Source: Sulfurimonas sp. HSL1-2 (GTDB taxonomy: Bacteria > Campylobacterota > Campylobacteria > Campylobacterales > Sulfurimonadaceae). From it: a DNA stretch of 64,000 nt. Position numbers and translations under genes: made by a program. The DNA lies in assembly GCF_039645565.1 (NCBI RefSeq), contig NZ_CP147914.1, forward strand, positions 989,573-1,053,572, in the 5' to 3' direction. Within the stretch, counting starts at the first letter, position 1; each line of letters opens with the position of its first letter. The notes under the pieces were generated by a model, which made no database searches, was not told the origin of the DNA, and saw nothing but the letters and a program-made list of their open reading frames with translations. Shown one piece after another: positions 24,957 through 30,715 of the stretch.

Positions 24957-25632
24957 CGACAAGCACCTCTCGGAGGTGACGGAGCGGACGATGCGGCGGC
25001 TCATCAACGAAGCGGTTGTCCTTCCTTCGAAATACCAGGAAACGTTTGCGGAAGAGGAGCAAAAAAGCCTGAACATGGCTGCGGAAAAAGCGGATGGTGA
25101 TATGGTGCACCGTGAGATCGATCTGCTGCGCACGCACCTCTTTTCCGACGATGTCACGCCGGCGAAAAACCGTCTCTGGCTCTACAAACAGAAGCTCAAT
25201 GCACGCCAGGGCTTCAGCGATGAGGGCTACCTGGTCAGCCTCCGTATCCCGGATTACAAAACAATCGTCGCTGAATACGACAGCATCATCGGCAACCGGG
25301 TCCTGATGCTGGTCTGCAGCTATGTGATCGAGTTCCTGAAAATGCAGCGGGTACATTTTGAAATTGCCCGCTATACCGAAGGGGATTTCCTGCTCTTTAT
25401 GCACCGGATCGACGAGGCTGAAGTCGAATCGCTTCTGATGAATATGCAAAACGGTGCCGCCAACCATACGTTCAAGCACCGCAGCAGAATTTTCGGGCTG
25501 ACGTTCGATGCCGTTGCAGTCCGCTACCTTGAAAATGAACCGTTCGCGACCGTCATGGATCAGCTCGAAGAAAAAAGGTTTGAAAAAAAGTTGAAGAGGG
25601 TGGTACCGCTGGCCGGACTTGAAGAAGACTAA
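24946..25632 (+). CDS. Degenerate GGDEF-like protein, 3' end formed by the island attachment site
   Basis: A 228-residue soluble protein that overlaps the EAL gene by 11 bases, with GGAGG upstream. The middle part (EGYLVSLRIPDYKTIVAEYD-type strand and helix, later YTEGDFLLFMHRID) has the GGDEF domain layout. The signature motif is absent (EGDF instead), so it is probably a sensory or partner protein of the EAL protein rather than a cyclase. The final codons (VVPLAGLEED) are read from the 25-bp repeat of the genomic island and a few island bases. Before insertion the gene must have ended differently. Confidence 0.7.
   Translation: MHHDDKHLSEVTERTMRRLINEAVVLPSKYQETFAEEEQKSLNMAAEKADGDMVHREIDLLRTHLFSDDVTPAKNRLWLYKQKLNARQGFSDEGYLVSLRIPDYKTIVAEYDSIIGNRVLMLVCSYVIEFLKMQRVHFEIARYTEGDFLLFMHRIDEAEVESLLMNMQNGAANHTFKHRSRIFGLTFDAVAVRYLENEPFATVMDQLEEKRFEKKLKRVVPLAGLEED
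25599..25623. repeat. attL: left 25-bp direct repeat of the tRNA-Leu island
   Basis: A perfect 25-bp copy of 30630-30654, beginning GGTGGTACCGCTGG. The right copy is the 3' end of tRNA-Leu(CAA) (T-arm part, acceptor and CCA), so this is the classic duplication left by integration at a tRNA 3' end. Confidence 0.88.
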
Positions 25633-25745
25633 AAGTGCCTGAAATAGGCAAATAGCAAGCTTTTCTAACTTTCACAGTAGTCATAAAAAGACATTTCTAG
25701 GCGCACACCGGGCACAAAAAATAAACATAGTGATATTGGTTTTCG

Positions 25746-25760
25746 GTACCAGGTGTCAGG
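25746..25760 (+). repeat. 15-bp direct repeat, copy 1 (GTACCAGGTGTCAGG)
   Basis: Identical to 25870-25884. Copy 1 runs directly into the T-arm of the tRNA-like fragment. Spacing between copies is 124 bases. It could be a recombinase site or a duplicated piece of the same tRNA. Confidence 0.7.
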
Positions 25761-25785
25761 GGTTCGAATCCCTTCGGGCGTGCCA
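25758..25785 (+). pseudogene. tRNA 3'-end fragment (T-arm, acceptor strand, CCA)
   Basis: AGGGG-TTCGAAT-CCCTT forms a proper 5-bp T-stem with the conserved TTCGAAT loop. It is followed by CGGGCGT, a discriminator G and CCA. No complementary 5' acceptor strand (ACGCCCG) or anticodon arm lies upstream, so this is a remnant, not a tRNA gene. The 3' end resembles tRNA-Arg-type sequences of this phylum (from memory, low certainty). It differs from the tRNA-Leu that bounds the island. Confidence 0.65.
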
Positions 25786-25869
25786 CTTTTACTTTCAACA
25801 GTTCCTAAAAATACGATATCACTACACTTTTTCAAAGTGTGACTCACTTGCTGCTGATTTATGGATTTT

Positions 25870-25884
25870 GTACCAGGTGTCAGG
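25870..25884 (+). repeat. 15-bp direct repeat, copy 2
   Basis: Second copy of GTACCAGGTGTCAGG, here without the tRNA T-arm following. The sequence after it diverges completely from copy 1. Confidence 0.7.
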
Positions 25885-26017
25885 TAGATTTGGCCCGGTT
25901 TTGGCATTAATATCTTTATATCCATTACCCTACCCCCGTCAAGAAACTCATAAGAAGTAGACTTAACTCAGTCTATGATAAAGTATTTTCAAATTTAAAG
26001 TCATTTGGAGAACTGCT

Positions 26018-27208
26018 TTGATTAATGAAGAAGATGCTTTCATTGAGTATGACAATCAATCTGAATCTGAAGAAGACATAACGGAGCTTGATCAAAGTTT
26101 TTTTTCTCAAGCCGTTGTTAGTGCAACTGACTGGACAACAGAAACAATCATCAATCAAATTAATAAGGGCAATATCCAATTAAACCCAGATTTTCAAAGA
26201 CGCGATGCATGGGATAAAAAACGAAAAAGTCGTTTCATTGAATCATTAATTCTTGGACTACCTGTACCTCAGATTGTCTTGGCTGAGTCGATAGATAGAA
26301 GAGGTTCGTATATTGTCTTAGACGGTAAACAAAGGCTATTGAGCATTCGCCAGTTTGCAGCTGAAAGAGATGATAACGTGTACGTCCAGTTGAAGTTATC
26401 TTCGCTCGACATTAGAAATGATTTGAAAGGTAAAAGCTTAGTAGCTTTACGCGAAGACCTGGACCTATTTGATGACCTTTCAGCATTTGAAAATCAGCCA
26501 ATAAGAACTGTGGTCATCAAAAATTGGCCAAATGAGAACTTTTTATATCATGTCTTTCTGAGACTAAATACTGGAAGTGTACCATTGTCTCCACAGGAGT
26601 TGAGACAAGCGTTACATCCAGGGCCATTTATATCATTTTTGGATGAAGCATCATCAGGAAGTGCGGCGTTACAAGACATTCTAAAGCTGAAGAAGCCAGA
26701 CTTCAGAATGCGCGATGCGGAGCTATTACTAAGGTATTTTTCTTTTAAAAACTATCTGTCCATGTATTCCGGCACATTAAAGTCTTTTTTAGACTACTGT
26801 TGCTCGACTATGAATCAAGAGTGGGGGGAACTAGAAGAGAATACATTTCAGCAAATGGCTGAGTTTGAAGAAGCTCACTTGTCCATCAAGAGGATTTTTG
26901 CGAATAATGCCTATAAGAAGTGGATTGGTGACACCTATGAAAGTAGATTCAACCGCTCTATTTTCGATGTCTTAATCCTATCCTTTTCTGAGTCGACAGT
27001 CCGCGAATTGAGCGATGGAAAAGAATTAGCGATTGAAGAAGCTTTCAAGGAGCTGTGTATAAATCCAGACTTTAAAGCATCTATCGAAAGCACAACCAAG
27101 AGTCTAACAGCAACACACACTCGCATATCTTTGTGGAACACAAAGTTAAATGAAATACTAGGTTCAAGTTTACATGTTCCCAAATTAGTAGAACACCGTA
27201 TTATATAG
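26018..27208 (+). CDS. DUF262 (ParB/Srx-like) protein, probable defence component
   Basis: A 396-residue protein starting with TTG at 26018, seven bases after TTTGGAG. The DUF262 core is clear: NPDFQRRDAW (residues 57-65), a helix ending ESLILGLPVPQIVL, then YIVLDGKQRLLSIRQF with DGKQR at 102-106. DUF262 is the nucleotide-using ParB-like domain found in GmrS/GmrSD type IV restriction enzymes. The C-terminal DUF1524 His-Me nuclease of GmrSD is missing; residues 200-396 are helical and unassigned. A HEPN gene follows nine bases later, so the nuclease role may be supplied there. Confidence 0.85.
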   Translation: MINEEDAFIEYDNQSESEEDITELDQSFFSQAVVSATDWTTETIINQINKGNIQLNPDFQRRDAWDKKRKSRFIESLILGLPVPQIVLAESIDRRGSYIVLDGKQRLLSIRQFAAERDDNVYVQLKLSSLDIRNDLKGKSLVALREDLDLFDDLSAFENQPIRTVVIKNWPNENFLYHVFLRLNTGSVPLSPQELRQALHPGPFISFLDEASSGSAALQDILKLKKPDFRMRDAELLLRYFSFKNYLSMYSGTLKSFLDYCCSTMNQEWGELEENTFQQMAEFEEAHLSIKRIFANNAYKKWIGDTYESRFNRSIFDVLILSFSESTVRELSDGKELAIEEAFKELCINPDFKASIESTTKSLTATHTRISLWNTKLNEILGSSLHVPKLVEHRII

Positions 27209-27216
27209 GACGTTGT

Positions 27217-27867
27217 ATGCCTATATCAAAGAGATTTAAAGAGTTGCGTTCGAGACTCATTGAGTTAAAAACTCATATGCTTCCAGGAAGTTTTTCTGCT
27301 ACTGGGAACTATACAGACAGACAATTGGATCGTACACGAGGATACCGCTTATTGGTTCATGCTGAAATCGAGTCATATCTCGAAGATGTCTCCAAAGAGA
27401 TTGTCACAGATGCCATACGAGAATGGAAACGAAATGGTAAAGCATCCAACTTGCTCATCGCATTTTTAGCATCATATCATTCTAGCTGGAGTGTTAATGA
27501 TGAATGCTCAAATGAAGAAATAATCCAGTTAGCAAGATCTCGCAAGAAGCCAAATGACTCTATAGAAGAAGTAATTGATTTAGCACAAAAGCAATTTGTT
27601 CAAATTGTAAAAGACAACCATGGTGTTAAAGAAAACAACTTTAAATCACTTATCCTACCTACAGGAATTGACATTGCCGGACTTGATAATACCTGGATGA
27701 CTACCTTAGACAACTTCGGTAGTTTACGAGGTGAAATTGCGCACAAAACAAAAAGAGCGACAACACAACTGAATCCAGAAGACGAGTATAAAAGAGTAAA
27801 AGATTTACTAGAAGGATTGAAAGATCTTGATAAAAAAATCATGAATATAAAAAGTGAATTAATATAG
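27217..27867 (+). CDS. HEPN-family RNase-like protein (RiboL-PSP or MAE_28990 type)
   Basis: A 216-residue all-helical protein. The N-terminal half has YRLLVHAEIESYLEDVSKEI, typical of HEPN families of the RiboL-PSP / MAE_28990 kind. The catalytic RX4-6H motif is present as R171-GEIA-H176 followed by KT. HEPN RNases act in toxin-antitoxin, abortive infection and CRISPR-linked defence (family knowledge). The gene starts nine bases after the DUF262 stop with AGGA upstream, so the two form an operon. I infer a two-gene defence module with DUF262 as sensor or regulator and HEPN as effector. Confidence 0.8.
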   Translation: MPISKRFKELRSRLIELKTHMLPGSFSATGNYTDRQLDRTRGYRLLVHAEIESYLEDVSKEIVTDAIREWKRNGKASNLLIAFLASYHSSWSVNDECSNEEIIQLARSRKKPNDSIEEVIDLAQKQFVQIVKDNHGVKENNFKSLILPTGIDIAGLDNTWMTTLDNFGSLRGEIAHKTKRATTQLNPEDEYKRVKDLLEGLKDLDKKIMNIKSELI

Positions 27868-28046
27868 TTCAAGGGGTCACTTCAAAAGAGTAACTGGATT
27901 ATTAGTCCAGGAGTCACAACCCAAGAAACATAGTCTATGAGGGCCTTACAATACCTTTTCAAAAACCAGAGTGTCGGATATGCGCCGTTTTGGATGTTTT
28001 GTTTGATAGAATGCAGTGTTTTAGAGAGGATTGAAGGCTTTTTTTT

Positions 28047-29963
28047 ATGTTAAACCTTGAACAAATATTGATTAAAGCAGCTCAATATCTAGATTTGGAT
28101 TTAAACAGACTGGCTATCAAACAGACCCCACAAAAACGACGCTTTATTGCAAGAGACAATCTCAAAGAAAAATATGATGAAGTGCTCCAAAACCTTCTCC
28201 AGGAAATATACTATTTCAATGCGCATCCAGTTTTAAAAGACATTGTTTATGAATTTCTGGAGGACTATGAGTATGTGCAGAGGGAACTCTATTCAACCTA
28301 TAATCAATCCCTCGAAAAAAAATATGACTGGCTACTGTTAAAGCATTTTGTTGTGCCCTATTTTGCATATCTGCTGGGTCGTTATTTTTCCCAATATGCT
28401 GACAGAATCGATAAAGGCCTACCGGGTGGAGAGTTCTGGTATTTGCCAAAGATCAAGAATAAGAAAATAATTTTTCCTCTCAATATGGTCCTGAATTGGT
28501 GGATAGACTTATACGGCGGAACCAATGAAGATTTTTATGCTGCAATGCCACTCGAGAATAGCCGACAGGAGACAAGTTCAGAAAACTTCGCGTCCGACTT
28601 TAAAGAGATGGATCAACGTCGAAACGTCTTGAAAAGTTGGCACGATAAATTTGTAATTCCAGATATGTCAAGCATTCACAAGTACGCAAGTGAGAAGTTA
28701 AATTATCAAGGTCTTTTCATACGTCATACAGACAAATCCCTGGAGGAGCAGTTTGAAGATGCCTGTACGTTTGTCAAAGATGTTAAAACACTGACTCTGG
28801 ATGATTTGAAAAGAGAGTTTCCAAATCCCAACAACCTATTAGGTCGACTTGAAGAGAATCTAGAGGCTCCAGAAAAAGAGAAATTCGTTTCCTACGTTCA
28901 CGATAGATGGCAAGAGCCAATGTCAAAACAACTTTCATCCATATTGACATCGGTACGTGTGATTCAATCTGCCTACAAATATCTGAGCAACTACTTTGAA
29001 TCCGATATGAAGAGTCCTGATATTGAGCAAAACAGGATATTGCAACTTTGCGGGTTATTCTCGAAAGTTCATAACCTAACTAGTGAATACTACTATGGTG
29101 ATTCAATAGAAAACCTAAACCCTTACGCACTGTATTACAAAGATTATGTGGCATGCTTTTTTGAAAATGAAAATAAAAAGGAAATGCTCGATCGAATTAT
29201 TTCCTACATCAGCAAGGAAGTCGGCCAAGATAACTTTCATTATTCAGTCGATGAACTTTTATTATTTGGGCCGGAAATTGCCAATGTAAATCTGCAGGCC
29301 GCACAAAGATTGTCTGAAAAAAAAGCGCGTATCGAAAGCGAAAAAGCTGATGAAAAAAGGCTGCTGGAAGTACTATTTGCGATTCAGGGTAGTCAAGATG
29401 GAGCCTTCATAGATCTCCAGCTTAAATCACTGGAAAATTTTCACAGTGTAGTAAACCTTGGAGAATGTTTTGAAGGGAATAATTTTCTAACCAATGAATT
29501 CGTATTCCCAAATCTACATCTTGCAATGAAAGCATACTATCATGCTTTTGCAATCGCTCAATCAGATTTTGAACGGACCTATGCTGCCATAGCAATCATA
29601 AATCTTGCAACTAGCCCTTTCCATCCCCGTTTGTTGAAAAAAGAAGAAGTTGACTATTGGTTTGAACAATGCACAGGATGTGACGATATGGGAATGGAAA
29701 GAGACTATTTGATCCACTTAACCCAGAAGGCTTTTCATGAGATTCTTCAAAAAAAGCACCAGAATGCCGTTCCCATGATTGTAGAATTCATGAATAAAAC
29801 CAGGCGCTTAAAAGATAATGAATACCGCCCTGAGCTGTTGTGTGTAGGTGAAAAAGTAGCAAAGCTACTGAAGAACAGGAAGCTCGAACAAGAACTCAAA
29901 AAAAGAAACGCACACCATAAACCTTGCAAAGTCTACATCTACGCTTCAATCAACTACTACTGA
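28047..29963 (+). CDS. Large helical island protein, function unrecognised
   Basis: A 638-residue soluble protein, Lys/Glu/Tyr/Phe-rich, with no signal peptide and no convincing membrane span. A helix-rich N-terminal part contains YDWLLLKHFVVPYFAYLLGR and a Trp-rich patch PLNMVLNWWIDLYGG. The centre (about 410-440) is a charged coiled-coil-like helix (AAQRLSEKKARIESEKADEK). I see no nuclease, ATPase, protease or helicase motif. It lies 180 bases after the HEPN gene behind a small hairpin (27894-27910) and probably has its own promoter. Island position suggests an accessory or defence function. Confidence 0.7.
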   Translation: MLNLEQILIKAAQYLDLDLNRLAIKQTPQKRRFIARDNLKEKYDEVLQNLLQEIYYFNAHPVLKDIVYEFLEDYEYVQRELYSTYNQSLEKKYDWLLLKHFVVPYFAYLLGRYFSQYADRIDKGLPGGEFWYLPKIKNKKIIFPLNMVLNWWIDLYGGTNEDFYAAMPLENSRQETSSENFASDFKEMDQRRNVLKSWHDKFVIPDMSSIHKYASEKLNYQGLFIRHTDKSLEEQFEDACTFVKDVKTLTLDDLKREFPNPNNLLGRLEENLEAPEKEKFVSYVHDRWQEPMSKQLSSILTSVRVIQSAYKYLSNYFESDMKSPDIEQNRILQLCGLFSKVHNLTSEYYYGDSIENLNPYALYYKDYVACFFENENKKEMLDRIISYISKEVGQDNFHYSVDELLLFGPEIANVNLQAAQRLSEKKARIESEKADEKRLLEVLFAIQGSQDGAFIDLQLKSLENFHSVVNLGECFEGNNFLTNEFVFPNLHLAMKAYYHAFAIAQSDFERTYAAIAIINLATSPFHPRLLKKEEVDYWFEQCTGCDDMGMERDYLIHLTQKAFHEILQKKHQNAVPMIVEFMNKTRRLKDNEYRPELLCVGEKVAKLLKNRKLEQELKKRNAHHKPCKVYIYASINYY

Positions 29964-30063
29964 AAAAATTGTACGACTTACTATCCACCGCCGTTTATCC
30001 CTCCCCAATAAAATTTTCGCATCGGTTCATCTTTGAATCGAAATAAACGTGAAAGGATCTGGC

Positions 30064-30159
30064 ATGTCCAAATCAAGTGGATGCACGCCTCCGAAGGGAC
30101 CAAGTACTACTGGTAACCCATCTGGCGGTGGTAGGGGTAACTGCCCTTCAAAAAAATAG
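30064..30159 (+). CDS. Gly/Pro-rich two-cysteine microprotein, 31 residues
   Basis: ATG preceded by AAAGGA at about seven bases. The product starts MSKSSGCTPPKGPSTTGNPS, continues with a GGGRGN segment and ends in CPSKK. It has two cysteines and no hydrophobic stretch. A strong terminator (30181-30204) follows at once, which supports a real short transcript. Function unknown; small Gly-rich proteins of this look occur in defence and mobile contexts (memory, low certainty). Confidence 0.5.
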   Translation: MSKSSGCTPPKGPSTTGNPSGGGRGNCPSKK

Positions 30160-30180
30160 GTCGTTTATCACAACAACACA

Positions 30181-30204
30181 AAGAGCCCAGTTGGGCTCTT
30201 TTGA
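30181..30204 (+). terminator. Intrinsic terminator inside the island
   Basis: AAGAGCCC (30181-30188) and GGGCTCTT (30193-30200) form an 8-bp perfect stem with a 4-base loop, and the T-run continues past the stem. It separates the 31-residue gene from the next small operon. Confidence 0.8.
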
Positions 30205-30221
30205 TAGAAAAGGATTAAAAC

Positions 30222-30374
30222 ATGGCATATTATCATTACCAGTGCCGGCATTGCCTGGTCACTACGTATCTATATGATGATGGAGAAGATGACGGCATAA
30301 TCGTACAAAATGCGTACGATGACTGTGGGTGTCAAGATGATGAGGACGACTTTTATGATGATGACGATGATTAG
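30222..30374 (+). CDS. Acidic zinc-ribbon-like microprotein, 50 residues
   Basis: ATG with AAAAGGA eight bases upstream, directly after the terminator. The product has C8-X2-C11 (QCRHC) and C35-X-C37 (DCGC), a likely metal site, and an Asp/Glu-rich tail of about 12 acidic residues. It lies eight bases before a basic 96-residue protein. An acidic first gene and basic second gene is a common toxin-antitoxin layout; this is inference. Confidence 0.55.
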   Translation: MAYYHYQCRHCLVTTYLYDDGEDDGIIVQNAYDDCGCQDDEDDFYDDDDD

Positions 30375-30382
30375 GAATCGAG

Positions 30383-30673
30383 ATGAGAATAACAAAACAT
30401 GCTAAAAGGAGAATGAAAGAACGTCTTGGATTGCCAAAACGTGCACAGCTCAAGCACCTTACTAAAGCCATAAACGATGGAAGATTGATCTATCGAAAGG
30501 GGTTTGATGTTTTCCAAATCATCTATAAGGATTTCATCTATATATTTGCTCTTGATGAGTATTTATCACCTAAGTTGATTACAACTTATAACTATGAGTC
30601 TCGGAAAGTCCCTGTACAAGGGCTAAAGAGGTGGTACCGCTGGCCGGACTTGAACCGGCACACCCGAAGGTAA
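30383..30673 (+). CDS. Small basic protein, DUF4258/BrnT-like, running into tRNA-Leu
   Basis: A 96-residue protein with the opening ITKHAKRRMKERLG, an INDGRLIYRK segment and a final strand LITTYN. This pattern recalls DUF4258 or BrnT-like small proteins, some of which are ribonuclease toxins. The body seems to end near residue 70-75. The last 14 residues (RWYRWPDLNRHTRR) are read antisense through the tRNA-Leu gene and attR, so the present C-terminus was created or changed by integration. AGGAATCG precedes the ATG. Confidence 0.55.
   Translation: MRITKHAKRRMKERLGLPKRAQLKHLTKAINDGRLIYRKGFDVFQIIYKDFIYIFALDEYLSPKLITTYNYESRKVPVQGLKRWYRWPDLNRHTRR
30630..30654. repeat. attR: right 25-bp direct repeat within tRNA-Leu
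   Basis: Perfect match to 25599-25623. It covers the CCA, acceptor 3' strand and most of the T-arm of tRNA-Leu(CAA), which stays intact. Confidence 0.88.
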
Positions 30674-30715
30674 CGGATTTTGAATCCGTCGTGTCTACCA
30701 TTCCACCACAGCGGC
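30632..30715 (-). tRNA. tRNA-Leu (anticodon CAA)
   Basis: Read on the minus strand: acceptor GCCGCTG pairing with CAGCGGT (G-U at the first pair), discriminator A and an encoded CCA. The D-arm contains GGTAGA. The anticodon arm is ACGGA-TTCAAAA-TCCGT with anticodon CAA, the long variable arm has a TTCG loop, and the T-arm is GCCGG-TTCAAGT-CCGGC. The long variable arm and CAA anticodon identify leucine (UUG codons). Its 3' end is the island attachment site. Confidence 0.95.

Follow-up and report, generated by a model that had tools for sequence, protein, structure and literature searches.

The window, a 64,000-nucleotide stretch of the Sulfurimonas sp. HSL1-2 genome, carries two adjacent genes that read in the same direction. 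The first (positions 26,018-27,208, + strand) begins with a TTG start codon preceded by GGAG and encodes a 396-amino acid DUF262 (GmrSD_N, ParB/Srx-like) protein, a probable sensor or regulator. The second (27,217-27,867, + strand) begins with ATG and encodes a 216-amino acid RiboL-PSP-type HEPN protein, predicted to be the probable RNase effector. An earlier note on this DNA, made from the sequence alone, placed the second gene nine bases after the first; the close adjacency stands, but the DUF262 stop and the HEPN start are separated by eight bases, with the ninth being the A of the ATG. In Pfam searches, the DUF262 protein matched GmrSD_N over residues 43-200 (E = 4.4e-24) with no other significant match, and the absence of DUF1524 that had been claimed for it is borne out. 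The QRRDAW and DGKQR motifs also described there are present, at residues 60-65 and 102-106, respectively. The HEPN protein matched HEPN_RiboL-PSP (E = 3.6e-14, 53.5 bits versus a family cut-off of 28.4) and has the intact R-x4-H motif ascribed to it, as RGEIAH (R171-GEIA-H176).

Pfam detected no DUF1524 or HNH nuclease in the DUF262 protein, the HEPN protein, or a 638-amino acid protein encoded nearby, and no nucleotidyltransferase domain of the kind that partners HEPN in HEPN-MNT pairs; the partner of this HEPN is DUF262. When the proteins were compared with the PADLOC defense models, the DUF262 protein matched NsnA over nearly its full length (E = 1.6e-65) and, at a lower level, PD-T4-2_A (E = 3.1e-37). 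The HEPN protein matched none of the models, and the pair was not called as any complete system. A scan of the sequence for promoters and terminators gave signals no higher than those in shuffled sequences.

The pair lies on a 5.03-kb AT-rich island (25,624-30,654), which we delimited by its low GC content and by the empty site in sister genomes. Repeat comparison showed that its borders carry the tRNA-Leu 3' end as an exact direct repeat of 25 bp: the left copy is at 25,599-25,623, and the right copy, at 30,630-30,654, overlaps the 3' end of the tRNA-Leu(CAA) gene (30,632-30,715, - strand). GC content is ca. 0.34-0.42 in the AT-rich stretch versus ca. 0.55-0.60 outside it. In the genomes of four sister species (L140-L143), the flanks are contiguous, with the tRNA end between them, and the 5.03-kb stretch is absent. 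Thus, this stretch is an insertion. No integrase was seen among the larger open reading frames of the island. Among 298 genomes of the host phylum, we found a single weak HEPN match besides the host itself, and the DUF262 homologs with 61-71% identity occur mainly in Gammaproteobacteria. Because of this distribution, the pair was probably acquired horizontally, and the single weak match in the phylum makes its arrival in the host look recent.

The island has several other features. The 638-amino acid protein (28,047-29,963, + strand) has no Pfam family and no homolog in the fetched loci; the PADLOC model Ankyrin aligns through its N-terminal portion (8-339 of 880) with residues 5-349 of the protein (E = 2.1e-38), and the gene is possibly a second defense gene. 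A 63-bp stretch at 25,737-25,799 is 86% identical to another site in the genome, which overlaps or adjoins a tRNA-Arg gene (L137); it looks like a tRNA 3' fragment and is perhaps the scar of another integration. Three small open reading frames lie at the right end, all on the + strand: a Gly/Pro-rich peptide of 31 amino acids (30,064-30,159), which has no plasmid match, an acidic, Cys-containing peptide of 50 amino acids (30,222-30,374), and a basic protein of 96 amino acids (30,383-30,673), the end of which runs into the tRNA repeat.

With a DUF262 alignment as the query, 113 loci were obtained from genome and viral collections, and a HEPN gene lies directly downstream of the DUF262 gene in 96 of the 134 loci that were tabulated (the window locus being counted twice). 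In a maximum-likelihood tree of DUF262 with 105 rows, the window protein falls within a clade of 69 rows (SH-aLRT 99), 65 of which were scored as HEPN-paired. One of the remaining four (L061) has an intact HEPN with a long overlapping frame. The others comprise a locus with HEPN reduced to an N-terminal fragment (L046), one on a contig that stops at the DUF262 stop codon (L088), and one with 528 bases of contig remaining and no HEPN recognized there (L040). An intact HEPN therefore lies directly downstream throughout the clade except at these three loci. The clade includes at least six phyla, namely Pseudomonadota, Actinomycetota, Bacillota, Bacteroidota, Cyanobacteriota, and Acidobacteriota, and the pairing on which the earlier note staked its reading is thus conserved well beyond the host.

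The genes are also closely spaced, with a median of 2 nt between DUF262 and HEPN and a range of -35 to +25 in 90 of 94 loci. Distance matrices for the two proteins correlate with r = 0.91 over 70 loci, a measure of shared inheritance rather than of physical contact; none of 2000 permutations was as high, and none exceeded 0.24. The two genes are a tight, operon-like module that is co-inherited. No third conserved component was found among the neighbors of the homologs, with the exception of structural and replication genes of P2-like phages.

Residue conservation is concentrated in the expected motifs. Across the 94 HEPN proteins that adjoin DUF262 homologs, with identity to the window protein as low as 13%, no column except R171 and H176 is fully invariant, so that the motif noted earlier is kept in every homolog of a set that was gathered by profile search and in which motif-less relatives could be under-sampled. 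E52 is shared by 91 of the 94 and A175 by 87. In an early set of seven HEPN proteins, of which six had 13-30% identity to that of the window, the only invariant residues were R171, H176, and the start Met. HEPN_RiboL-PSP is matched by 64 of 70 homologs at E ≤ 0.001. On the DUF262 side, Q60, R61, W65, D102, G103, Q105, and R106 are invariant (70/70), and residue 104 is Lys in 61 (giving DGKQR) and Gln in eight. Because R171 and H176 alone are invariant in the 94 HEPN proteins, and because the distance matrices of the 70 loci agree so closely, the R-x4-H motif and the pairing are far beyond chance. As read from the alignments, the conserved R-x4-H and Glu are the residues expected of a putative metal-independent RNase, and the conserved DUF262 residues are those expected of a putative NTP-binding ParB/Srx pocket.

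Confident AlphaFold2 models were obtained for the DUF262 protein (pLDDT 91.6) and for the HEPN protein, which is all-helical (pLDDT 88.1). In a fold search of the PDB, the top ranks for DUF262 were BrxU (7p9k, probability 0.99), SspE (6jiv, 0.82), and CDP-bound ParB (6sdk, 0.99); these matches are weak, with E-values above 0.001 and low TM-scores for BrxU and SspE. The HEPN model gave no significant match, the nearest HEPN entry being 7ae6, a HEPN/MNT toxin (E = 1.1, probability 0.54), and a PDB sequence search with HEPN returned one irrelevant match only. The models thus favor a ParB/Srx NTP-binding core for the DUF262 protein, and the HEPN model neither proves nor excludes RNase activity.

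The pairing of DUF262 with HEPN is already known. RiboL-PSP-HEPN has been listed as being in an "operon with ParB" in a one-line table entry (Anantharaman et al. 2013, PMC3710099); the entry ties the same HEPN family to a ParB-like gene, but holds no data on clade, distribution, mobility, or defense for the branch seen in the window. PD-T4-2, native to E. coli ECOR65, blocks T4 in that strain as well as in K-12 (Vassallo et al. 2022, PMC9519451) and is listed as DUF262 plus a PF18735 HEPN (PMC10952713). In our comparison, PD-T4-2 is represented by a PADLOC-defined member (L155). This member and the window pair share the gene order, with a DUF262-only gene followed by HEPN, as well as the GmrSD_N and HEPN_RiboL-PSP domains, and its HEPN also has an R-x4-H motif (RNSHAH). 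In contrast, identity between the two DUF262 proteins is only 29% over 252 residues, the L155 HEPN has 167 amino acids versus 216 in the window, with no significant pairwise similarity, and L155 falls outside the clade of the window protein, on a long branch of which the exact place is unsure. Neither the window HEPN (searched up to E = 1) nor that of a close homolog, L021 (up to E = 0.1), matched PADLOC PD-T4-2_B, and this model had no match in 295 genomes of the family to which a Pluralibacter metagenome-assembled genome belongs. The PD-T4-2 type as defined by the PADLOC profiles was found in one Nostocales genome only (G639). That genome carries both a pair of the window type (L032) and the PD-T4-2 type pair (L155).

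DUF262 also connects the pair to GmrSD, BrxU, and SspE, which act directly on phage DNA (PMC10952713). Like these, the window protein has a ParB/Srx-like DUF262 with D-G-x-Q-R, and BrxU and SspE are its top fold matches. Unlike them, the pair has no DUF1524 or HNH nuclease, and the usual DGQQR gives way to DGKQR (in 61 of 70); the motif of GmrS is described as (I/V)DGQQR (PMC10952713). The relationship to GmrSD proposed in the earlier note therefore holds as regards a DUF262 with D-G-x-Q-R, but among known systems PD-T4-2 and, through its DUF262 subunit, Menshen are closest to the pair. Its proposal of a two-gene module stands: a ParB-fold, putative NTP-binding partner is joined to a HEPN with catalytic-type residues, across phyla and on prophages and islands. 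We found no name in the literature for this DUF262 plus HEPN branch. The window pair is a separate branch and not a categorically new system; it is of the same type as E. coli PD-T4-2, and its recognition is a modest but real discovery.

The homologous pairs reside on islands, plasmids, and P2-like prophages. At ca. 20 prophage loci, the pair adjoins the P2-type portal, terminase, and replication gene A. Pairs (L081-L086, L091-L094, L096, L098, L110, and others) occupy the interval that separates packaging genes from replication gene A in P2-like prophages, facing either way. These positions suggest that the interval is a cargo hotspot; P2 itself carries the defense genes tin and old there.

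On balance, we favor the view that the two genes form an anti-phage module of the DUF262 plus HEPN type, in which DUF262 would control a HEPN RNase. In its favor are the conserved pairing, the close spacing, the co-inheritance, the conserved motif residues of both proteins, and the fold ranking of DUF262; against it stand the PADLOC result, with no complete system called, the HEPN model with no significant fold match, and the weakness of the BrxU and SspE matches. The anti-phage reading is drawn from PD-T4-2, which has the same architecture and protects against T4, and from the mobile and prophage context; because of what is known of the family, as in BrxU and SspE, we infer that a DUF262 NTP switch would control HEPN. 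In an uninfected cell, the HEPN protein would be kept inactive by bound DUF262 protein. A cue from the phage, which may be its DNA in a modified or replicating form or else an altered nucleotide pool, would shift the nucleotide state of DUF262, and the altered DUF262 would then release or activate the HEPN RNase. RNA cutting would halt phage growth, probably through shutdown of the infected cell. A more specific proposal, which we regard as possible if doubtful, is that a ParB-fold NTP/CTP switch licenses the RNase. Here, DUF262 would clamp phage nucleic acid and would gate HEPN through the nucleotide state of its DGKQR pocket, in which Lys stands for Gln, so that a GmrSD-like sensor would have RNA as its target.

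The strong NsnA match raises another origin for the pair, namely that its DUF262 is an NsnA left over from a Menshen system that has lost NsnB and NsnC. The Menshen DUF262 subunit likewise has no DUF1524, and the match to its profile is nearly full length. However, that subunit pairs with NsnB (annotated as DUF3696) and NsnC, whereas the partner in the window is HEPN; a true NsnA beside NsnB and NsnC (L020) scores 400 bits, versus 220 for the window protein; and NsnA proteins form a clade of their own (support 99) outside the HEPN-paired clade. The PADLOC models for NsnB and NsnC were unmatched by the pair, and no such gene is present in the island or recurs near the homologs. We rejected a Menshen remnant on tree position, scores, and the missing NsnB and NsnC, and consider it extremely improbable. 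Relatives within the host order (L002-L005 and L010) have DUF262 genes that are Menshen-like by clade, with a downstream partner of 350-397 amino acids that is not of the HEPN type.

Direct restriction, in which DUF262, on recognizing phage nucleic acid, would recruit HEPN to cleave phage RNA, or would itself nick DNA, and the infected cell would survive, seems to us unlikely. Such action would resemble that of GmrSD, BrxU, and SspE on phage DNA, and direct immunity accounts for 9 of the 21 systems of Vassallo et al., in the text of which the class of PD-T4-2 is unstated (PMC9519451); yet the pair has no DNase domain in Pfam, and defense HEPN enzymes are described as usually growth-arresting RNases (PMC3710099). 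Plain toxin-antitoxin addiction, with HEPN as toxin and DUF262 as antitoxin, would mainly stabilize the mobile element without phage sensing. The tight linkage of the genes, which overlap or nearly do so, the occurrence of pairs on small islands and plasmids, and the weak fold match of HEPN to a HEPN/MNT toxin all agree with it, but an invariant NTP-pocket motif is unusual for a simple antitoxin, and both the P2-like prophage cargo site and the protection against T4 by PD-T4-2 point away from addiction, which we judge to be quite unlikely.

DUF262 is the recurring sensing half of several defense systems, in which its normal partner is a DNA nuclease or one of the OLD type, and a deep, cross-phylum clade that wires it to an R-x4-H HEPN shows that the sensor is modular. 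PD-T4-2, the single tested example, is thereby extended to a large branch that goes uncalled by PADLOC and that supplies many natural variants with which phage sensing by DUF262 plus HEPN pairs may be tested.
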